Shown here: positions 9,224 through 23,788 of the stretch, one piece after another | Numbering within the stretch: position 1 is the first letter of the stretch | How the letters are laid out: every line of letters starts with the position of its first letter | IMG/VR virus record: IMGVR_UViG_3300025282_000242 | Coordinates: 1-23,929 of that record | DNA: 23,929 nucleotides | Strand: one strand, 5' to 3' | Source of the DNA: a virus | The notes under the pieces: generated by a model | What the model was told of the DNA's origin: nothing | Database searches by the model: none | What the model saw: the letters and a program-made list of their open reading frames with translations, nothing else | Position numbers and translations under genes: made by a program

Positions 9224-11691
9224 TGGGTCAAGCTGATCTAATTCAAACTAACTTTACGTCAGGCGAGTTATCTCCTCTGATGAAAGGACGTGTAGATGTT
9301 ACTCGTTACTTTAACGGAGTTCAAACTTTAGAGAATTTTATAGTTCGTCCGCAAGGCGGGGCAGATAGAAGAACAGGTTCTATCTTCATTAATGAGACTA
9401 AAGATTCTTCTAAAGCTTCTCGTCTACAGGAATTTGAATTCTCTACAGTTCAAACATATATTTTGGAGTTTGGGCATCTTTATATACGTGTATACAAAGA
9501 TGGTGGTATAGTAGAATCAGCTCCTACAGTTCCAGTAGAAATCGTTTCTCCTTGGGGAGAATTTGCTGTTACTGATTTGTATTTTGCACAATCAGCCGAT
9601 GTTCTCTATATATGCCATCCGGTTTTTCAGCCCCGTAAATTATCAAGAACAAGCCATACTGACTGGACCCTGTCACTGCTGGAACAGGAAGATGGCCCAT
9701 ACCTGGATTATGATGAAAATGATGTTACGTTAACAGTTGAGTCTATTGTAGATCGAATGACTATAACTTCTTCTCTGGCTGAATTTGTTGCTGGAGATGT
9801 TGGTGATATTCTTGAATACAAGTTAGATGGTGAGAGAACGATAGGACAGGTTAAAACATTTGTATCTACAACTGAAATTACTATAGAACCTTTTGATAAT
9901 GTAATTGCGGCCTTTGAAAAAGAAGTAACATTAGAAGAGAAAGATGGTTCTACTATTACAGCGTCACATGCTGTATTTCATAGAGGCAATGTTGGCAGTT
10001 ATGTAAAACTTGTAGGAGATGATGCCTCTCTTGATGATACTTGGAGGAGAATTACAGGATATGATGGGCAGGATAGGGATCAAGTAGAAGTAGGTAGTGC
10101 CCTTACAATGGTTGATACTGATCCAACATACGGAAACTTAACCCATAAGAATAGAGTCGTAACCGCCACAATTTTAGCGTCTTCAGCTATTTTTACTTCT
10201 GATGACGTTGGAAGACATTTACGATTAACTTTTGATACAGAACAAATATGGGCAGATATTACCGCATTTACAAATACTACCGAAGTAGATGTTACTCTTT
10301 CACGTAATCTTCCTTTGAAAACCAATGATTCTAGTGAATACCTGAATGATGGAATGACCCAGCAATGGAGATTTGGTGCTTGGTCTGAAACTACTGGTTG
10401 GCCTTCTATTGTAACGTTTCATGAAGAACGATTAGTATTTGCCAATACCCCTGTTAATAAGCCCCAGACAATTTGGATGAGTCAAGCTGCTAATTATGAA
10501 AGTTTTGCCCCATCAGAAGAGGATTCTACAGTTGTTGATAGCAACGCTGTAACATATACAATTGCATCTAATAAAGTTAACTATGTTCAATGGATGAATT
10601 CTGGCCCCGTACTTTTGATAGGTACAATAGGATCTGAATGGTTGGCTAAAGCTTCTACGGTAAATGAACCTATCACACCCACTAATTTAAATATTCGTCA
10701 GCAATCGACACATGGGGCTACATTTATTAAACCTGAAAGAGTTGCAAGTGCAGTATTGTTTCTTCAGCGGTCTAAAAATCTTCTTAGGGAATTAGTGTAC
10801 GATTTTGAGATAGATTCTTATATCGCTCATGATCTCAACATTGTAAGTGAGCATATACTTCGAGATGGGCAGGGAGCCACTGATATGGCATATCAGCAAA
10901 CCCCTAATAGTATTTTATGGATTACTAGAGCAGATGGACAATTAGTCGGAGTTACCTATGTTAAGGAACAAGAGGTCGTTGCCTGGCATCGTCATATTCT
11001 CGGTGGTTCTTTTGGCGCTAGTAATGCTGTGGTAGAAAGCATCGCTGCTGTGCCTGCAAGTGATGATGCAGCCCATGTTCTATATATGATCGTTAAGAGA
11101 ACTATTAATGGTGTAACTAAGCGTTATGTCGAATACCTCTCACCTAGTTTTGATCCGCTAGCTTCTACAGATAAAGATGATATGAGATATATGGATAGCT
11201 TGCTCAGTTATGATGGTGTAGCGGTTTCTACTCTTACAGGACTTGATCATCTTGAAGGAGAAACAGTTTCAATTGTTGGAGATCAAACTATTCTTCCTGA
11301 TGCTGTTGTTTCTGGGGGATCTATAACTCTTGCTAATCCTATATCTAAAGCTCATGTTGGATTAGCGTATACCTCTTTACTTAAAACAATGCCTCCTGAG
11401 GGAGGTGGAAATGCTGGAACAGCTCAAGGAAAAATTAAAAGAATTAGCCATGTCACTTTCAGATTACTTAATTCTATTGGCTTTAGTTATGGCGTTGATA
11501 GCTCTGATCTTACATTGCATTCCATGAGATCATCTGATGATGATATGGATGTTTCTCCAGATCTATTTACAGGAGATATACGAATAGAACTAGACCAAGA
11601 TTATGAACGCGATGGTTCTTATTTCGTTGCTCAAGATCAAGCATACCCACTAACTATTATAGCTTTAATGCCTGAACTGGTGGCACATTGA
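9223..11691 (+). CDS. Tail tubular protein B, T7 gp12-like nozzle
   Basis: An 822-residue beta-rich protein starting with GTG within TAGTG of the preceding stop; GGAG lies at 9210-9213. The N-terminus (TNFTSGELSPLMKGRVDVTRYFNGVQTLENFIVRPQGGADRRTGS) is highly characteristic of tail tube B proteins of T7-like phages, and FHEERLVFANTPVNKPQTIWMSQ near residue 400 is a second family landmark. It makes the tapering nozzle of the short tail. Typical length for the family. Its last bases overlap the TTG start of the gp13-like gene by four. Confidence 0.93.
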   Translation: MGQADLIQTNFTSGELSPLMKGRVDVTRYFNGVQTLENFIVRPQGGADRRTGSIFINETKDSSKASRLQEFEFSTVQTYILEFGHLYIRVYKDGGIVESAPTVPVEIVSPWGEFAVTDLYFAQSADVLYICHPVFQPRKLSRTSHTDWTLSLLEQEDGPYLDYDENDVTLTVESIVDRMTITSSLAEFVAGDVGDILEYKLDGERTIGQVKTFVSTTEITIEPFDNVIAAFEKEVTLEEKDGSTITASHAVFHRGNVGSYVKLVGDDASLDDTWRRITGYDGQDRDQVEVGSALTMVDTDPTYGNLTHKNRVVTATILASSAIFTSDDVGRHLRLTFDTEQIWADITAFTNTTEVDVTLSRNLPLKTNDSSEYLNDGMTQQWRFGAWSETTGWPSIVTFHEERLVFANTPVNKPQTIWMSQAANYESFAPSEEDSTVVDSNAVTYTIASNKVNYVQWMNSGPVLLIGTIGSEWLAKASTVNEPITPTNLNIRQQSTHGATFIKPERVASAVLFLQRSKNLLRELVYDFEIDSYIAHDLNIVSEHILRDGQGATDMAYQQTPNSILWITRADGQLVGVTYVKEQEVVAWHRHILGGSFGASNAVVESIAAVPASDDAAHVLYMIVKRTINGVTKRYVEYLSPSFDPLASTDKDDMRYMDSLLSYDGVAVSTLTGLDHLEGETVSIVGDQTILPDAVVSGGSITLANPISKAHVGLAYTSLLKTMPPEGGGNAGTAQGKIKRISHVTFRLLNSIGFSYGVDSSDLTLHSMRSSDDDMDVSPDLFTGDIRIELDQDYERDGSYFVAQDQAYPLTIIALMPELVAH

Positions 11692-12119
11692 AAATAGTAG
11701 AAACAGAATTATGGCATCTTAAATACCTTGAGGATAGGTATCCTGAGACTGGCTTTGGAAGCTTGGATAAGGCCTGCTTAACAAGTATAGCTTATACAGG
11801 GTTTATTGACGAAGAGCCTATAGGTATGGCAGGTATCATGACGATGTGGCCGGGAGTAGGAGAAGCGTGGGCATTGATTACTGACCAAGCCAGAGGACAA
11901 GCCCTGTCGATGCACCGTGCAGTTTACCGGATTATGAATGATTCTAATACTTGGGATGAATTTCATAGAGTACAATGTGTAGTTCTTGTGGGAGATTCTA
12001 AAGCCTTGCATTGGGCAGAACATTTAGGATTCAAGGCTGAAGGTCTTCTATCTGATTACGATTCCAATAAAGTATCTTATATAAGAATGGCGAGGTTGCG
12101 AAATGGCTGTAGCATTTAG
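11688..12119 (+). CDS. gp13-like internal virion protein with GNAT-type fold
   Basis: A 143-residue protein starting at TTG in TTGA, coupled to the previous stop. A GNAT-like core can be followed: a strand with EEPIGMAGI, a helix after the position where acetyl-CoA would bind, and a C-terminal ALHWAEHLGFKAEG, the usual final helix and strand of acetyltransferases. The usual R/QxxGxG/A loop is replaced by TDQARGQALSMH, so CoA binding is uncertain. Position before a gp14-like gene and size fit T7 gp13, which helps assemble the internal core. The fold may be structural, with lost catalysis. Confidence 0.7.
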   Translation: MKIVETELWHLKYLEDRYPETGFGSLDKACLTSIAYTGFIDEEPIGMAGIMTMWPGVGEAWALITDQARGQALSMHRAVYRIMNDSNTWDEFHRVQCVVLVGDSKALHWAEHLGFKAEGLLSDYDSNKVSYIRMARLRNGCSI

Positions 12120-12864
12120 TGTAGGCACATTCCTAACTGCCTCAGCAGCGTTTGCAAGTGCGGCAATCGGTTATGCCAACGCCTCTAGCATGGCTGATCA
12201 AGCCCAGGCTACTGCTGAGTGGAACGCAGCTATGCAGCGAATGCAAGCTGAGAACTCGGCGCGACTTGCTCAAGCTGTAGGAGAAGGTCAAGCTGCTAAT
12301 ATAAAGGTGACGGCTGATTATCAAGCGGCAGTTGCTAAGAACAATGCTATTCTGGCTAAAAATGATGCTATAATCGCCACACAATCAGCACAACTTGCTA
12401 GAGATAATTCTGTTTATAGCGCCGATAGATTGAGAAAAAGAAACCGTTTATTGAGAGGAGCTCAAATTGCAAAAGCAGGCGCTGCCAGTGTTACAATATC
12501 AGGAAGTGTGGCTGATGTCGTATTTGATTCTGCTCTTGAAGGGGAATTAAATGTTCTTAATGAATTATATATAGGCGGCATACAAGCAACTAGCGCAGCT
12601 AATAGAGCAAGAGGTCTTCAGTATCAATCAGATTTCTATGATCATAGTTCAGAGGTTATTTTGCAAACCGGTATAAATAATGCTAATTCGGCACTTTGGG
12701 AAGGGGAGACAGGGGCGTTAACTTCTTTATGGTCTGGTCAGGCAAGAAGCAATATTGCTTTGTATACTGGTAGAGCTCGTAGTTCCTATTATACTGGTGA
12801 AGCACGAGGATCGTTAGTTTCTGGTGGATTACGATTTGGAGCAAGTTTCTTCCCCGAGGAGTAG
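12103..12864 (+). CDS. gp14-like internal virion protein B
   Basis: A 253-residue protein beginning 17 bases inside the preceding gene. It opens with a small hydrophobic Ala/Gly/Ser helix (residues 5-30, membrane-type), continues as a long Ala/Gln-rich coiled helix (about 30-110), then RLRKRNRLLRGAQIAKAGAASVTISGS, typical of gp14-like ejection proteins, where the AGASGVxxxGS turn is conserved. The product is expected to leave the virion and insert into the outer membrane to start the DNA channel. The C-terminal Gly/Ser/Tyr repeats are low in complexity. Confidence 0.85.
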   Translation: MAVAFSVGTFLTASAAFASAAIGYANASSMADQAQATAEWNAAMQRMQAENSARLAQAVGEGQAANIKVTADYQAAVAKNNAILAKNDAIIATQSAQLARDNSVYSADRLRKRNRLLRGAQIAKAGAASVTISGSVADVVFDSALEGELNVLNELYIGGIQATSAANRARGLQYQSDFYDHSSEVILQTGINNANSALWEGETGALTSLWSGQARSNIALYTGRARSSYYTGEARGSLVSGGLRFGASFFPEE

Positions 12865-12868
12865 TATA

Positions 12869-15223
12869 ATGGCAAAGTTTCCAACACTTCTTAGACAGGC
12901 AGCAAGCTCAACTGCTCTTCAAGGCGGAAGTGGAAGAGTATCCCCAGTATCAACAGCTATTTCAACCCCTAGAGCATCAGTTCCAAGAGCTCCTAATCTT
13001 CCAGATGTTGAGGTAGGTGATGGCTTGGGGATAAATTTTGCTCCATTCCTTAAAGATCTTTCGACAGTGGGGGCGAGCCTTCAAAATAGGCTGAAGAAAA
13101 GAGAAGATCTTTCAGACATGATGTGGGTGGAAGACCATAGTTCAGAAACTAGAGTTAAGTACCTTGGTCACCTTAAGGCTCTTGGAGAAAATCCAAGCGA
13201 TGACATAATTGCCAAGCTCGATACCGATTATACCGAATATGTTGGTAAGCTCCTGGAAGACTCTCCTTCTGATAAAGCAACTTATGCACTTACCAGGGAT
13301 CTTAATTCATTTAGGGAAACTCTATTAGGGGCTAGCTTGGGAATAAAAGCTAGACTTAATGTCCAACGAAATATTACAAGCCTAAATAAAATATTCACCA
13401 ATGCTTCCGATATTATCTCTAAGGATCCCCGCGCTGAAACCCTAGCCGAGCAGCAGCAGAATCTTATAACACTTGTAAATGCGTCCAGGGGACAGGGAGC
13501 AATAGACGAGAAGGTACATAGGTCGTATATAGACAGCATTCATAATTTGTCTGCTGAACTGGCAGAGAACCTTGTGGGAGATGATCCAAGGGCGGCTCAA
13601 GGAATCCTCGATGATGCTAAACATCTTTCTCTTCCGGTCAGAACCAGGATACAAAGTAAGATAGATAGAGCACTTAGTACTCTTGGAAATCTTGCAGTCT
13701 TCCGCGCCAAACAAGACCTAGAGAATAATAAAGTTTCTATATTAAAAAATGGTAAAGAAGATCCTAACTGGGATATAGCTGATTACGCAGATATAATGAC
13801 ACCAGCAGCTGTTGAAGAAGCTGAAGGAGAGATCCAGACTAATAAAGATTTGTATGCCGCTCAGGAATCTATGAGAGCGCAATCACCCAATGAGATGAAT
13901 ACGATACTAGCTGAGTTTGTAGGAGATGATCGATTATCCTATATGCGTGACGCTATGATACCAAGGCTTACTACTTTTAGAAATAATCAGGAAAAACTTC
14001 TTAATACCGACCCATATGCATATACTATGCAGTCCCCCGTAATGGGCAGCCTCGCTAAACAATTTGATAGTATATCTGAGGATAATGAAGCACTTCGCCT
14101 AGCAACCATGCAGGAGATGATTGAGACAAGCTACGGCATACAAAAACATCTTGGTATAAATGATGGAGTTAGGGCTCCTATACCGCTGGATAGAGCTGAA
14201 GAGATCGCTGGCTTTCTGAATGGTGCAGATCCGAATGACATAGGCCCCAAGTTAAGAGAGGTAATGACATTGTATGGTGATTATTACCCCGATGTCTTTA
14301 GGACACTGGTGGGATTACCTAAAAGTCAACGTATTGACACCTCTATCCACATCACAGCCCTTCATCCAAATGCTATATGGATTAAGGAATTCAATGACGC
14401 TATGCGGGTTGATGAATCGGAATATAACTTTAGTAACGATAACAATAACTTATTCGAAGATACGGCTGTAACTCATTCGGATATAGATAATTTTATGCGG
14501 GCTTCTGTTGCAGCAGATTCTAGTGAGGATAGAACGTCATATGCATTTGGATTTCAATCCTCTATTATTAAGTACGCAAAATCGTTATACTTTAGGGGCA
14601 AAGTAAATTCCCCTGTTAAGGCTATTAATCTAGCAACAGATCGAATTATTAATAGTAAGTATTCATTTGATGAAATAAATGGGCAAGTTTACGCTATACG
14701 AAGAGATCTTAGATCCACTGATGGTACCCCTGTTGATCTTGATGACAGTGACTTTAATAAGATAAACGCATTCTTAGAGCAGAAGATAAAATCTGGTTCC
14801 TTGGGGCTACAACTAGATGATTTAGATCTATCTAACTTTTATTCAACGTTCACAATGGGCGACGAAGCTAAACTTAGAGAAGTAAGTAACGCCTTAAGAA
14901 GAAACACTTTTTGGGTTACTACAGAAGATGATCAATCAGCTAGGCTTTATCTCAAAGGACGAGATGATACGTCAGATCCCGTTAGATACAAAGATCAAAC
15001 TCTTGTCGAATTCAATTTTTCAGAGATTCCTGCACTATATGATCTTGACCGGCACAAAGGACGAGCTCGTCGTGGCGGTCGACCTATACGAGATAATCTT
15101 GGGACGGAGGGGGAAACACGGTCTTCTCTTGGAGCCCCTGATTCTGCTAAGAGACTAGTTGAGTCCTTACCGAACGACGCTGTGCCCCTGAATACCCAAT
15201 CCCCACAAGGTAGTCAGCCATGA
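12869..15223 (+). CDS. gp15-like internal virion protein C
   Basis: A 784-residue, mostly helical acidic protein. I use ATG 12869 because GAGGAG (12856-12861) is correctly spaced; a GTG 45 bases upstream has none. Size, position between gp14- and gp16-like genes and the N-terminal NLPDVEVGDGLGINFAPFLKDLSTVGASL segment fit internal virion protein C, which forms the periplasmic part of the ejection tube with gp16. No enzyme motif is seen. The last 60 residues are Arg/Gly/Ser/Pro-rich and probably flexible. The stop overlaps the next start as ATGA. Confidence 0.8.
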   Translation: MAKFPTLLRQAASSTALQGGSGRVSPVSTAISTPRASVPRAPNLPDVEVGDGLGINFAPFLKDLSTVGASLQNRLKKREDLSDMMWVEDHSSETRVKYLGHLKALGENPSDDIIAKLDTDYTEYVGKLLEDSPSDKATYALTRDLNSFRETLLGASLGIKARLNVQRNITSLNKIFTNASDIISKDPRAETLAEQQQNLITLVNASRGQGAIDEKVHRSYIDSIHNLSAELAENLVGDDPRAAQGILDDAKHLSLPVRTRIQSKIDRALSTLGNLAVFRAKQDLENNKVSILKNGKEDPNWDIADYADIMTPAAVEEAEGEIQTNKDLYAAQESMRAQSPNEMNTILAEFVGDDRLSYMRDAMIPRLTTFRNNQEKLLNTDPYAYTMQSPVMGSLAKQFDSISEDNEALRLATMQEMIETSYGIQKHLGINDGVRAPIPLDRAEEIAGFLNGADPNDIGPKLREVMTLYGDYYPDVFRTLVGLPKSQRIDTSIHITALHPNAIWIKEFNDAMRVDESEYNFSNDNNNLFEDTAVTHSDIDNFMRASVAADSSEDRTSYAFGFQSSIIKYAKSLYFRGKVNSPVKAINLATDRIINSKYSFDEINGQVYAIRRDLRSTDGTPVDLDDSDFNKINAFLEQKIKSGSLGLQLDDLDLSNFYSTFTMGDEAKLREVSNALRRNTFWVTTEDDQSARLYLKGRDDTSDPVRYKDQTLVEFNFSEIPALYDLDRHKGRARRGGRPIRDNLGTEGETRSSLGAPDSAKRLVESLPNDAVPLNTQSPQGSQP

Positions 15224-18198
15224 GCATAACTTACAGACCAGCTCCAGTGATAAATAAGAACTTTTCTCCAGCACCCGCAGACCCTGGATTATCGACATTC
15301 TTGAAGACTAGTGCTGCTAATGCTTTTTATCATATGCCAACTACCGCGTTATATAGAATACATGAGCAAAGATTAGCTGATACTTCTTCTGATAACTTTT
15401 TTATGAATCTTATTGGGGGAGGAAAAGAAAATAAAGGTCGTCTTCTTTCTGCAGATGAGGCTAATGAAAGGTTTGGAGTCGGTGAGTTTCTTAGTTTTGA
15501 TGAAGACATCAATGAATATGAGGCTGCTTTGCTGCGTGATCGCAAAATCGCCGAATTAGAGCGTATGCGCATTATCCAGCAGGGATCCACTACCGTGGGG
15601 CGAAAATTCGCTGGGTTGGGCGCAGGTCTGGCTGCAACGATAGTGGATCCCATTAATTTAGGAACCATGTTCATACCTATAGTCGGGCAAGCCAAATATG
15701 CGAGGATGACTCAGCAATTTGGTGGTTCAGTAACCAAAGCTCGATTAGCTAGAGGAGCCATTGAAGGTTTTGTTGGCAATGCTATGGTAGAACCTGTAGT
15801 ATTAATAGCCGCTAGTATGGATCAAGCTGAGTATAATTATGTCGATAGTGCAATTAACTTAGGATTTGGAGCCATAGCAGGATCAGGATTGCATGCAGGT
15901 CTTGGTAAAGTAGGCGATCTTATCCAAAGCAGAGCTCTTAATACACAGTTCGCGAGGATCAAAAAAACTTTGGATGAGCTAGACCCTGATGAAGCAGATG
16001 CCATGGTTCGTGCGGCAATAGCAGATGTTATGGATGATAAGCCCATGGCATCTCCTTCAGAAGTATTCGAAGCCACTCTTAATGAGATTGAGGCAAGAGC
16101 CAAATTTGATGTTGAAGAAGCCAGGGCTGAATCATTAAGGGAATTGGGATTCGATAAAAATGCTCCTAAAACTTTTAAATTCTATTCTGAAGATACCGGG
16201 ATTCATGATCCTCAACCTAATGAGCCCTGGTTTCATGCTCGAGCTGCTGGAGGAAACATGGTCTTTTCAAAGAATAGGCCAGCTTTCTTTTCCAGATCTA
16301 TGACAATTCCTCGAAAAGTTGCTTCTATTAAATCTTTAATGCACGGTATCGGAGATGAGCCAGAGATATTCGTTGCTAATCTTAAAATGGAAAATCCGGC
16401 TGGTTTACTCGATCTTCAGAATGTTATCAATACTATGGATAGGGCAACTCTTAATCAAGAGCTCATTGACAATATTCCTAAAGAAAATATCAGAGCCCTG
16501 GGACTCGATGAAGGCAGACTTGATATTGAAGTACCGTTAGCTGATACCTTATTTTCTCCCACTGTTAGAAAAAGGCTTGAAGAGCAAGGATTTGATTCTT
16601 ATTTTGGTCCTCTTATTGGCCATACATTGTACCCTGTATATGATCTTGACTGGCACAAAGCTACGTCTCAACGGGATAATGTACTTGCTGTCGTATTTAA
16701 CCCTGAACAAATTAAATCTCCTGGAGTTAGGTCTAAGCAGTTAAAAGGTAAGGGCCATATTGAGACGTGGATTCGTAAAGTTCTTAATAGGGGTGAGACT
16801 CCAGCAGGCCCCGGAACATCTGGTAATCTTGCGGGTCCTCAACTTGGGGGCGGGAGAGTTGGACAATTTGCAGACGATCTTCCCGAGATTATTGATACAA
16901 TTAAGGACAAGTTTGATCAACCAGTTATAGAAGCAAGAACTGGTGGCGGGGTAGAATCTCTTGTTCTCATTACAGAAGATTTCGTCATTAAGCTTTCACA
17001 TAGCTCGGAAATGTTTAAGCGGGAAATGGGTACACTTACCCCTGACATGCTGTTTGCCAAGAAAATAGGACGTACTTACGTAACTATTGAAGAGTCGGTA
17101 GTTCCCCTTGCTGATGCACATAATCCGTTTGATAAGCTTAATGCCATGTGGCAGAATAAGGTTAGGGCTGATCTTCCTTCTGATGCTGATCTTCATTCTA
17201 ATGCTAGTCAACGTGGGGCGATGCACAATACTCTTGAAAAGGAACTTGAACTAAAGAGAGTTGAACTTGGTCTTGAACAACCTCGATTTCATCATTTCGA
17301 TGCTAAGAGCGATAATATTGGCGTAACCAGAGATGGTGATCTTGTCCTGCATGATCGAGGTGGATTACCTGACGACCTGAGACTTAGAGAAGATTTTACT
17401 AAGGATATTCTTCCTAATAGAGGATCTGACGGCATCTTCTTTGATACTGTTAATAATCTTAAACGATCTGTTGATGATAGAGTAAAGCATCTTCGTAAAT
17501 CTGTTATTCAGAATTTGATAGCTAAGAAACGTCGTGAATTCAAGAAAGCTCAAATAGCTGAAGCACGTCGTCAAATGAAGCGGATGGAAGATCCCACTCA
17601 GCTTATTAAGGCTGATGACGGTCCAGATCAAATAGCGGCTGCTATTAAAGAACAGATCCAAGATTTTCTACCCACGAGACTTAAGTCCCTGGCAGATGAG
17701 ATAGCAAATCTTCCAATTAAGGATTCTGACGGTAAGCCTACTTTTGGCCCTGGCATAAAGTACAGCGAGATCCTAGATAGGGTTAACGCGAAAACTAAAT
17801 CAAAGCTTCTCGATGCATTAAATGATGGAATTAAAGCAAAGATAATTCCTGAAGGACCAGTTGAAGGAGCTGCTGGAGTCTCAACAGTAATAGAGCAGTT
17901 CGATGAGTACTTTCCTATCATCTTAAAAAGATTTATCGGTGAAGAGGGTGGAGGGGCAGACTTACAAGGAGCTGGTGTTGATCTTGAAAGAAGAGTGAGA
18001 ATCACAGAGGAAGGTAACATTGAGATTATACCTGATCGAGAAGTTAGTGTTGATGAAGCCGTCAATGATTTCATAAACAATCTTACTGAGGAAGAGAGAA
18101 GACTTGTGGGTCCGATCTTAGATGATCTTGATAGATTCGACGCTGATGAATTAGGAATCAATGCAGCAATCGATTGCATCATAAGGAGCATGACATAA
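15220..18198 (+). CDS. Large internal virion protein with ADP-ribosyltransferase-like and kinase-like segments
   Basis: A 992-residue protein in the place of T7 gp16, an ejection-channel protein. The N-terminal part has two hydrophobic stretches (about 131-156, with VDPINLGTMFIPIVG, and 188-199) followed by a Gly-rich one, which may insert in the inner membrane. Residues 319-503 resemble ADP-ribosyltransferases of phage polyvalent proteins: WFH at 337-339, FFS at 356-358, and FNPEQIKS at 493-500 with Glu496. Residues 570-716 resemble a protein kinase: Gly-rich TGGGVES (574-580), VIKL with Lys591, a Glu602 helix, HFDAKSDN (692-699) and DRG (712-714). Asp694 to Asp712 is 18 residues, as in classical kinases. 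No lytic transglycosylase motif is visible. Activity is inferred, not shown. Confidence 0.75.
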   Translation: MSITYRPAPVINKNFSPAPADPGLSTFLKTSAANAFYHMPTTALYRIHEQRLADTSSDNFFMNLIGGGKENKGRLLSADEANERFGVGEFLSFDEDINEYEAALLRDRKIAELERMRIIQQGSTTVGRKFAGLGAGLAATIVDPINLGTMFIPIVGQAKYARMTQQFGGSVTKARLARGAIEGFVGNAMVEPVVLIAASMDQAEYNYVDSAINLGFGAIAGSGLHAGLGKVGDLIQSRALNTQFARIKKTLDELDPDEADAMVRAAIADVMDDKPMASPSEVFEATLNEIEARAKFDVEEARAESLRELGFDKNAPKTFKFYSEDTGIHDPQPNEPWFHARAAGGNMVFSKNRPAFFSRSMTIPRKVASIKSLMHGIGDEPEIFVANLKMENPAGLLDLQNVINTMDRATLNQELIDNIPKENIRALGLDEGRLDIEVPLADTLFSPTVRKRLEEQGFDSYFGPLIGHTLYPVYDLDWHKATSQRDNVLAVVFNPEQIKSPGVRSKQLKGKGHIETWIRKVLNRGETPAGPGTSGNLAGPQLGGGRVGQFADDLPEIIDTIKDKFDQPVIEARTGGGVESLVLITEDFVIKLSHSSEMFKREMGTLTPDMLFAKKIGRTYVTIEESVVPLADAHNPFDKLNAMWQNKVRADLPSDADLHSNASQRGAMHNTLEKELELKRVELGLEQPRFHHFDAKSDNIGVTRDGDLVLHDRGGLPDDLRLREDFTKDILPNRGSDGIFFDTVNNLKRSVDDRVKHLRKSVIQNLIAKKRREFKKAQIAEARRQMKRMEDPTQLIKADDGPDQIAAAIKEQIQDFLPTRLKSLADEIANLPIKDSDGKPTFGPGIKYSEILDRVNAKTKSKLLDALNDGIKAKIIPEGPVEGAAGVSTVIEQFDEYFPIILKRFIGEEGGGADLQGAGVDLERRVRITEEGNIEIIPDREVSVDEAVNDFINNLTEEERRLVGPILDDLDRFDADELGINAAIDCIIRSMT

Positions 18199-20744
18199 TG
18201 GCTAAGAAGGCAGATCCTTGTATCGACGCTATCCGACAAGCGGGTGGTGATAAGATTACTGTAGCTCAGGCTCAGGAAATCATTGACGATATTATGAATC
18301 GAGCTGACCGTATTGATATGGCGAAAATGGGCAATGTTGAAAATAAGATCAAGGAAATTGGTAGTAGCATTCTTGATCAAAACAAAATTTCTAAAGAGAT
18401 CCAGAAACGCAATGCCATTTTAATCGTAACGGCACAACGTCGTATCAGAGATTATGTCAGTAGGTTTCCTACCGCAGGCGAGGGTTTACAGGCATTTAAT
18501 GAAGGTGCTACTGGTAGAGCGAGAACAACCCGTGGCGCGAGACTCTCGGTAGATAGTCAAGTAATTGCCCTAAAACATAAGTTTACTGGTGATTTCCTCA
18601 ATGAATTAGAAACTGCTGGACTTGTCGGAGACTTCGTATCCAATAGACTGGAAAGAGAGATCTTCCAAGAGCTGTGGCATATCAACGATCCAAATGCACA
18701 TAACCCTTCAGGAAATAAGAATGCCAAACAGCTAGCTCAGATAATCCGTAGACTTCAGAATGAAATGGTAGATAGGGAAAACAGGGCTGGGGCCTATATA
18801 GGAAGACTCGACAACTACGTAATCAGACAGACCCACGATGCTACTGCTATTCGTAAAGCTGGTGGTATGGGTATGGGTAGAGGATCTAATGAGGCGTCAT
18901 TCCAGGCGTGGAAGGAGTTTATCACGCCCCTGCTTGACGAAGAACTCACATTTAAAGACATGGTCCCTGAGGAGTTTTTAAGGGAAGCTCATCGTGGAAT
19001 AATCACTGGGGTTCATCATCGTAGTCCTATATCAGCAGGTCAAGAATTCGTACCAACAGGATCACTAGCTAGAAAGATAAGTCAACGAAGAGTTCTTCAT
19101 TTTAAGGATGCTGATTCCTCGTTTGCTTACAACTCCCGATTTGGAGCAAGGAATCTTCGTGACGGAGTAATCGGTGATATTAAGAGGTCTTCACATGCAA
19201 TTGGGTTACTCGAAAACTATGGTCCAAATCCCGAGAACACATTTAGAGCTCTCGTCGATGAGTTTAAGCAAGTCGCAAGAACATTACCTGATGATCGAGA
19301 ACAGCTCTTACGTCTCGACAGCCCTAATCTTCAGGCATCCTTCGACGAAATTATGGGTCGTCACGATATACCTCATAATATGACCTTACATAGAGTAACA
19401 CGTGCATTAAGAGATTGGCAAACCCTGTCAAAGCTTGGTGGTGTTACGTTGTCTGCTATTCCAGATAAAGCTTTCTTTCATATGGCAGGGACTTATCAGG
19501 GTATGAAGAGTTTGGATATATGGAGAGAACAGTTAGGCATCTTTATTCCTAAAACTGCTGAAGAAAAGGAAATAATCAGGGCAATGGGAGCTGGTATAGA
19601 TGCTTTCCTTGGAGAAGTTGCAACTAGATTTACTGCCACTGAAAAAGTCGGTGGAACTATGTTCAAGCTCCAACAGAACTTGTTTAAGCTTAACGTAATG
19701 AATTGGTGGAATGATGTTCATAAAGGAGCATTTGCTAAACTTACTGCTATCACTCTCGGAGAACATGGTAAGTTTGATCATGGGCAGCTCAATGATGATT
19801 TAAGGAATTTGTTAAACATCTATGATATTAACGCCCCAGATTGGAACTTGCTCAGATCTCATACATACGACGTAGGTGGTAGAACGTACTTGACACCTGA
19901 TCGTGTCAATGAAATTCCAGAAAGTCGTATAATATCTGAGCTTGAGACAAGGGGCATTGGAGTTTCAGATGGTAACATTCGTAGATTTAGAGATCAGTTG
20001 GAAACGAAACTTAGAGCTCTCATATCCGATCAAGTGGATGATGCAATTCCAACTCCAGGTGGACGTGAGAGGAGACTCTCATATTGGAATACGGAACCAG
20101 GCACTGCAAGAGGAGCTGCTGCTAGATTACTTATGCACTTCAAGAGCTTTCCCATTACTGTGTGGGAAAGAGCCGTCAAGCGTGAAGTTTATGGTCATGG
20201 TTCCAAATCAGTTAAACAATGGCTGTTAAGTGATCGTAAAGGAAACTTTAGAATGCTTCAACTTATCGCTCTTACAACGATAGGTGGATATATTTCTATG
20301 AGCATTAAGGATGCTTTAAGAGGTAGGAAACCACGAAGATTGAAGAACGATGATGGCAGTTTCAACGCTGATGTAGTTCTAGCTGCCATGAAACGTGGCG
20401 GTGGGTTAGGAATCTATGGAGATTTCTTGTTTACGGAATATGATAGAAGTTATAGTAGCGTAGTAAATGTAATGGCAGGACCCGTTGTAGGAACTGCTTC
20501 AGAGGTAATAGGAACTGCTTCTCAAGGTATAAGGGGTAAAGATATTACCAGACCCGCGGAAAAATTGGCCCTGGGTAACACTCCGTTTATTAATTTGTTT
20601 TACATTAGACCAGTCTTAGATTATCTTATACTCTGGAATATTGAAGAAATGCTAAATCCAGGGTCATTAACAAGAATGGAAAAATCAGTTGAAAAGCATA
20701 ATCATCAAGGTTTTCTTGTTCGCCCATCGGAGGTCGTAAGATGA
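18198..20744 (+). CDS. gp16-like C-terminal internal virion protein
   Basis: An 848-residue protein starting at ATG in TAATG of the previous stop, with AAGGAG at 18183-18188. The long helical body and the C-terminal region (AARLLMHFKSFPITVWERAVKR, then a hydrophobic helix near 687-705, and a closing MLNPGSLTRMEKSVEKHNHQG-type segment) match the C-terminal halves of large podovirus internal virion proteins. It probably works with the preceding protein as two pieces of a gp16-type channel. No enzymatic motif stands out. The ATGA junction couples it to the fibre gene. Confidence 0.8.
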   Translation: MAKKADPCIDAIRQAGGDKITVAQAQEIIDDIMNRADRIDMAKMGNVENKIKEIGSSILDQNKISKEIQKRNAILIVTAQRRIRDYVSRFPTAGEGLQAFNEGATGRARTTRGARLSVDSQVIALKHKFTGDFLNELETAGLVGDFVSNRLEREIFQELWHINDPNAHNPSGNKNAKQLAQIIRRLQNEMVDRENRAGAYIGRLDNYVIRQTHDATAIRKAGGMGMGRGSNEASFQAWKEFITPLLDEELTFKDMVPEEFLREAHRGIITGVHHRSPISAGQEFVPTGSLARKISQRRVLHFKDADSSFAYNSRFGARNLRDGVIGDIKRSSHAIGLLENYGPNPENTFRALVDEFKQVARTLPDDREQLLRLDSPNLQASFDEIMGRHDIPHNMTLHRVTRALRDWQTLSKLGGVTLSAIPDKAFFHMAGTYQGMKSLDIWREQLGIFIPKTAEEKEIIRAMGAGIDAFLGEVATRFTATEKVGGTMFKLQQNLFKLNVMNWWNDVHKGAFAKLTAITLGEHGKFDHGQLNDDLRNLLNIYDINAPDWNLLRSHTYDVGGRTYLTPDRVNEIPESRIISELETRGIGVSDGNIRRFRDQLETKLRALISDQVDDAIPTPGGRERRLSYWNTEPGTARGAAARLLMHFKSFPITVWERAVKREVYGHGSKSVKQWLLSDRKGNFRMLQLIALTTIGGYISMSIKDALRGRKPRRLKNDDGSFNADVVLAAMKRGGGLGIYGDFLFTEYDRSYSSVVNVMAGPVVGTASEVIGTASQGIRGKDITRPAEKLALGNTPFINLFYIRPVLDYLILWNIEEMLNPGSLTRMEKSVEKHNHQGFLVRPSEVVR

Positions 20745-23272: not shown

Positions 23273-23788
23273 ATGAAGAAAATAGTAGCACTACTCGTAT
23301 TATTGCCCATGCTTTGCCTTGCAGATGGGGCACGTACATTCTCAGTAACTAATTCATCTGAATTAGTATGCGCTGACAGATCACGGTTCTATTTCAATGA
23401 ACCTAATTGGGTAACATCAACTGCATACGTTAATGGTAATACTGTTACCAATGCTGGCAGTCACTATATGGCTCTCAGTGCGGGAACCTCAGGAGCTACA
23501 GCACCTACACACAACTCAGGTGCTGTTTCCGATGGCACTGTTGACTGGCTTTATATTCCTATGGGGGCAGAAACAAAACCTCTGTATCGTGAAGATATTG
23601 TTTTTATAGTGATGTCAGGTGGGCCGGTTTCATTTAATGTAGGTACAACCGCAGTTCTAAACACCGGTATAACTCTCCCTACCGTCAATTCGTCTTGGTC
23701 CCCTGGCAATGTTCCTCAGGAAGAGATTCATGTCATTGACGGTAATATTGGCTCTGTTATATCAGTATATGAAAGGTCACGTAACTAA
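23273..23788 (+). CDS. Signal-peptide protein with phage carbohydrate-binding-like module
   Basis: A 171-residue protein with AAGGAG four bases before ATG. It starts MKKIVALLVLLPMLCLADG. Cleavage is likely after CLA; Cys15 is not in a proper lipobox, so it is not called a lipoprotein. Residues 46-95 (WVTSTAYVNGNTV, YMALSAGTSGATAPTHNSGAVSDGTVDWLY) form a module found often in phage tail proteins, with Trp, Tyr and the GTSG-PTH-DG-W pattern and thought to bind glycans. The rest is beta-rich. It stops in TAATG, shared with the following gene. Confidence 0.8.
   Translation: MKKIVALLVLLPMLCLADGARTFSVTNSSELVCADRSRFYFNEPNWVTSTAYVNGNTVTNAGSHYMALSAGTSGATAPTHNSGAVSDGTVDWLYIPMGAETKPLYREDIVFIVMSGGPVSFNVGTTAVLNTGITLPTVNSSWSPGNVPQEEIHVIDGNIGSVISVYERSRN

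Follow-up and report, generated by a model that had tools for sequence, protein, structure and literature searches.

Gene content of the locus

The window (the whole stretch of DNA analyzed here, IMG/VR record IMGVR_UViG_3300025282_000242) may be a genome fragment, since the virus record comprises 23,929 bases. It carries a virion operon with genes for a terminase, portal, protease, major head protein, tail tube proteins, internal virion proteins and a tail fiber with a T7-type N-terminal domain, and the gene order in relatives is the same. Between the tail tubular B/internal virion genes and the tail fiber, as expected for a T7-type ejection protein, lies an intact open reading frame with an ATG start and no internal stop codons, which encodes a protein of 992 aa (Table 1).

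Residues ~10–250 of this protein, which form an N-terminal family domain, match phrog_3003 (E = 9.9e-26 and 8.4e-27), and residues 98–274 match phrog_342, the T7 gp16 family (E = 2e-11). Matches to internal virion proteins of Pelagibacter and Pseudomonas phages were also found. The original prediction had placed the protein at the gp16 position, which is roughly right. However, this protein and the product of the next gene match different parts of phrog_342, and the two therefore correspond to gp16 jointly rather than the 992-aa protein alone. Judged by its sequence, the protein is a member of the T7-type ejection (internal virion) protein family within a virion operon, and gene family and synteny make it reasonable to infer that it is delivered with the phage DNA.

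Three other stretches gave weak or no matches. A 799-aa ORF (positions 12824–15223) occupies the place of the annotated lysozyme or structural lysozyme of relatives, and neither Pfam nor PHROG gave a convincing match for it. Near the tail fiber, a 171-aa ORF (23273–23788) weakly resembles the carbohydrate-binding module CBM_5_12 (E = 0.0008, under the cut-off). The C-terminal helical part of the 992-aa protein (17623–18153) matched KAP_NTPase at 18 bits (cut-off 20, E = 0.0018). We rejected this identity, as the match is under the cut-off, covers a charged helical stretch and is probably due to composition.

Table 1. Position, strand and basis of assignment of features in the window
Feature	Position	Strand	Basis
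Internal virion/acetyltransferase-like protein, upstream	11688..12119	+	phrog_308, phrog_4177
Internal virion protein, upstream	12103..12864	+	phrog_418
992-aa ejection (internal virion) protein with insert	15220..18198	+	phrog_3003 (E 9.9e-26); phrog_342 (E 2e-11)
Conserved N-terminal ejection-protein domain, residues 1–300	15220..16119	+	phrog_3003 over residues 10–248
ADP-ribosyltransferase-like region, residues 330–505 (WFHAR with His339; FFSRS; ENPAG; GFDS with Asp459; VVFNPEQIKS)	16207..16734	+	L009 profile, alignment, L146 pattern
Kinase-like region, residues 549–735	16864..17424	+	Homology to L016/L028, profile scores
Gly-rich turn TGGGVES (574–580), Glu579 invariant	16939..16959	+	Three-homolog alignment, motif check
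Lys591, predicted ATP-binding lysine	16990..16992	+	Invariant in three homologs
Catalytic-loop motif HFDAKSDN (692–699), Asp694 and Asn699 invariant	17293..17316	+	Three-homolog alignment
DRG metal-site motif (712–714), Asp712 invariant	17353..17361	+	Three-homolog alignment
Conserved C-terminal tail (...AIDCIIRSMT)	18151..18195	+	Common to relatives without insert; Cys986 invariant
Next gene, 856-aa virion structural protein, other part of gp16 family	18174..20744	+	phrog_684 (E 1.3e-168); phrog_342 (E 1.9e-8)

A variable slot in the ejection protein

Most relatives of the 992-aa protein are 407–642 aa long, and those from Pelagibacter and Pseudomonas phages (~420–580 aa) are annotated as internal virion proteins or as hypothetical. 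When aligned with the short relatives, the window protein has in common with them its first ~300 aa and the very end of the sequence, where Cys986 is invariant, whereas the ~500 residues between these parts are extra. This insert consists of an ADP-ribosyltransferase (ART)-like region (~330–505) followed by a kinase-like region (549–735). There was no sign of recent acquisition of the insert, the GC and GC3 of which are close to those of the remainder of the gene.

Proteins of at least ~1,000 aa were encoded at four loci among 80 IMG/VR relatives (L009, L016, L028 and L019, the last being a near copy of L028). Segments homologous to the kinase-like region were found in L016 and L028, in the same slot. 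Including that of the window, three distinct copies are known, and these are very divergent (23%–39% identity). Plain tblastn searches of phages, plasmids and IMG/VR with the kinase segment gave no usable match, catalytic-loop DNA patterns searched in IMG/VR recovered L016 only, and a scan of genome contigs with the three-sequence alignment gave no match.

The slot has other contents as well. L016 has a GNAT domain (Pfam E = 1.3e-4, just under the cut-off), and two distant relatives, L097 and L099, have a clear ADP-ribosyltransferase (ADPrib_exo_Tox, PF03496, E = 1.6e-20 and 6.1e-17). Kinase, ART and GNAT modules are all found at one variable slot across relatives, which points to the known theme of polyvalent proteins. 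These are large multi-domain proteins of phages and conjugative elements that are thought to be injected, and they carry ARTs, kinases, GNATs and other domains (Iyer et al. 2017, PMC5512222).

Further features were observed in individual relatives. In both L009 (5974–9039) and L016 (5947–8907), a GNAT-acetyltransferase-like domain lies within the same slot. The ejection-protein relatives in L097 (5599–9120) and L099 (5668–9159) are 1,164–1,174 aa long, and ahead of ADPrib_exo_Tox they have a segment that by eye resembles a HipA/PI-kinase-type phosphotransferase (HipA_C only E = 0.085). A 778-aa relative in L096 (5929–8262), which had no Pfam match, appears by eye to contain two ART-like segments (FYHGR... 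and LYHST...).

The ART-like region, which was not part of the original prediction, immediately precedes the kinase-like region within this protein. Residues 330–505 scored 16.3 bits against a profile made from the single L009 sequence (best shuffle 9.4), and the two proteins are co-linear, with EPW[FY]H[AG]R, [FW]F[ST]R, NPA, GFDS and VVF[ND]P in common. The same motif order (FFFT, NPL, GYDG, FYPNQIKS) occurs in L146, a genuine Pfam ART-PolyVal match fetched for comparison. Of the ART-PolyVal triad (His in strand 1, Tyr in strand 2 and Asp in strand 5), the window protein has His339 in WFHAR and Asp459 in GFDS, with Phe at the likely Tyr site. The Pfam ART-PolyVal model (PF18760) matched neither the window nor three relatives, and the ART-like label is hence an assignment by pattern. 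We consider residues 330–505 a probable ADP-ribosylating domain.

Evidence for a kinase-like region

The motifs named in the original prediction were each verified at their residues: TGGGVES (574–580), Lys591 (in FVIKL), Glu602, HFDAKSDN (692–699) and DRG (712–714). The Gly-rich loop, the VIK lysine, the catalytic Asp and Asn and the metal Asp are present in that order and are conserved in the homologs. Low shuffle and ORF counts mark this order and spacing as unusual: when the protein was shuffled 20,000 times, a strict pattern (Gly-rich loop, VIK-type Lys, [HY]xD(x4)N and DxG, all at kinase spacing) arose once and the loose half-pattern HxD..N..DxG 195 times, and the window protein was the only one with the full pattern among 438 ORFs (300 aa or longer) of related loci. 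Motif matching by itself would not settle the kinase question.

Profile comparisons gave further evidence. A profile of L016 and L028 scored 25.9 bits on the window segment (best of 2,000 shuffles 9.4), and the N-lobe part (15.1, best shuffle 6.9) and the catalytic part (14.4, best shuffle 5.9) each exceeded every shuffle when scored alone. The L016 segment matched Pfam ABC1 (PF03109) at 25.3 bits, above the cut-off of 22.9, and for the window segment itself there was no sequence match in Pfam, PHROG or the PDB. Against a UbiB/ABC1 kinase profile in hhalign, the window segment alone scored 29.5 (best of 40 column shuffles 20.2), with the alignment falling on the catalytic loop and DRG, and the three-sequence profile scored 55.0 (shuffles at most 21.2); the UbiB proteins compared are a friendly sample of their family, because they were first picked up as weak matches of L016.

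Predicted structures differed in quality. The AlphaFold (AF2) model of the window segment was too poor for use (pLDDT 39.8, pTM 0.26); its strand and helix order is kinase-like, and its Foldseek matches, mostly to kinases, were not significant. The L016 segment was modeled at a pLDDT of 68.8. Its top Foldseek matches were protein kinases in the viral library BFVD (E = 1.1e-3, probability 0.97–0.98) and phosphotransferases and kinases in the PDB (E = 0.016, probability 0.85), at low TM-scores of 0.3–0.4.

The PDB matches of L016 start with a capreomycin phosphotransferase and contain LicA and WbdD besides protein kinases, and the closest sequences are ABC1/UbiB atypical kinases, the substrates of which, to our knowledge, are not established as proteins. 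Such neighbors would also be expected of a kinase fold with a non-protein substrate, which would phosphorylate a small molecule (as APH-type and LicA-type enzymes do) or transfer AMP (as SelO does), for example inactivating a defense signal or metabolite. We consider this unlikely, given that the region is paired with an ART-like one and that polyvalent kinases, which set a precedent, are predicted to act on proteins (PMC5512222).

Comparison of the three homologs narrows the set of residues that characterize the region. Invariant among them are the GxES turn with Glu579, the acidic position that the N-lobe conserves, Lys591, Asp694, Asn699, a DG turn and Asp712. Glu602 and His692, which the original prediction had counted among the kinase motif residues, are not conserved, and L016 and L028 have no catalytic-loop His. 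The predicted spacings of 103 residues from Lys591 to Asp694 and 18 from Asp694 to Asp712 were both verified in the window protein, and the latter is common to the homologs, as is the Asp-(x4)-Asn spacing. The 103-residue distance is peculiar to the window protein, and because it is 64 in L016, its agreement with classical kinases appears fortuitous rather than a hallmark.

The loss of Glu602 from the conserved set weakens any claim to a classical protein kinase, and no alpha-C Glu pairing with the Lys is conserved among the three. Homology among the segments stops ~25 residues past DRG, with no further kinase motif seen. These sequence features suggest that the region differs from a classical two-lobed protein kinase.

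The missing alpha-C Glu and catalytic-loop His, together with DRG in place of DFG, would also suit a pseudokinase or structural remnant, in which the fold is retained as a scaffold or nucleotide binder that transfers nothing. However, Lys, Asp, Asn and Asp have been kept in three very divergent copies, which is unexpected under relaxed selection and makes this reading somewhat less plausible still than that of a non-protein substrate. Chance resemblance within the spacer of a long virion protein, for which the lack of a direct database match and the low-confidence window model might speak, is highly improbable in view of the shuffle controls, the same-slot homologs conserving the same residues and the kinase assignment of L016.

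In our judgment, a kinase-like fold for residues 549–735 is very probable, and phosphotransfer activity of the region is likely. We regard it as a kinase-like domain of minimal size, carried by a "polyvalent" ejected protein, the activity, substrate and ejection of which we infer.

Relationship to known systems

Polyvalent kinases are reduced to the catalytic core, with the usual C-terminal subdomain absent and a Glu ahead of strand 2 kept (PMC5512222). The window protein resembles polyvalent proteins in its combination of ART-like and kinase-like effector domains, its apparently minimal kinase core and its Glu ahead of strand 2. It differs in its carrier, which belongs to the T7-type ejection (internal virion) family, and in that the published family model does not recognize its kinase.

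We compared the region directly with Kinase-PolyVal (PF18762). The Pfam model did not match the window or three relatives. A Kinase-PolyVal-like consensus composed by us and used as bait only (138 bits on PF18762) fetched 19 real loci, mostly from Bacteroidota along with one Opitutaceae genome. Against these members the three-sequence profile gave a weak hhalign score of 20.3 (best of 40 shuffles 17.6, probability ~2%), and the window segment alone did not rise above shuffles. The alignment spans 95 columns and matches up the G-E, K, L[TF]P, D..N and D motifs, and Glu579 lies N-terminal to strand 2, in the same place as the GGE/GAE of members. By contrast, the conserved Gln of the last N-lobe strand is absent at the aligned site in all three homologs, and the window protein, with H692-F-D694, lacks the family's His-Asp insert of the catalytic loop. 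In its anatomy and setting the region works like a polyvalent kinase, yet we would not assign it to Kinase-PolyVal.

The ABC1/UbiB/ADCK atypical kinases (PF03109) have a similar catalytic loop and metal motif, and the L016 segment scores above their Pfam cut-off, although the likeness is limited to the catalytic half and does not extend to a Pfam match in the window itself. T7 gp0.7, compared here by description only, is also a phage kinase and modifies host proteins. It is made early in the cell and is not a virion protein. Ordinary phrog_3003 and phrog_342 internal virion proteins share the N-terminal 300 aa and the C-terminal tail with the window protein but have no insert. Phage T4 Alt provides an example of a head-packaged, injected host-modifying enzyme (PMC5512222), although it is an ART of the R-S-E type, has no kinase and belongs to another virion type.

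No report of a kinase-like domain inside a T7-type ejection protein was found in the literature searched, which is weak evidence of novelty as subscription journals were outside its scope. Injected polyvalent proteins with kinases and ARTs have been known since 2017; what appears to be new is this sub-lineage of kinases and its location within an ejection protein of the T7 type.

Potential role at DNA entry

Our main reading, to which we assign a probability of roughly 60%, is that the gene encodes a T7-type ejection protein turned polyvalent effector carrier, with kinase-like and ART-like cargo acting on the host. The conserved N-terminal domain and C-terminal Cys tail would place the protein in the virion core and ejection complex, as in its short relatives, and the variable slot between them holds the ART-like and minimal kinase-like domains. 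The protein would be packaged and would enter the cell with the DNA or ahead of it. There, the Gly-rich turn and Lys591 would bind ATP, Asn699 and Asp712 would hold Mg2+, and Asp694 would act as the catalytic base. The kinase-like domain may then phosphorylate a host protein, acting together with the neighboring ADP-ribosylating domain, so that defense is blunted, or host transcription or translation shifted, ahead of early phage gene expression.

Action before any phage gene is expressed, as originally proposed, follows only if the protein is ejected and active. The presence of kinase-like and probable ART domains in an ejection-type protein suggests that the host is re-tuned or disarmed by ready-made enzymes before expression begins. 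We advance more tentatively, at a little short of even odds, the broader view that T7-type ejection proteins have a fixed cargo slot loaded differently in each phage (with kinase, ART or GNAT), and that the kinase represents a new minimal lineage acting at DNA entry.

If the effector-carrier reading is true, T7-like ejection proteins would serve both as a conduit for DNA and as carriers of host-modifying enzymes that act prior to transcription. What the host encounters first could be tested using a single protein and its point mutant D694A, and the enlarged central parts of ejection proteins would be a hunting ground for host-takeover and counter-defense enzymes in uncultured phages.
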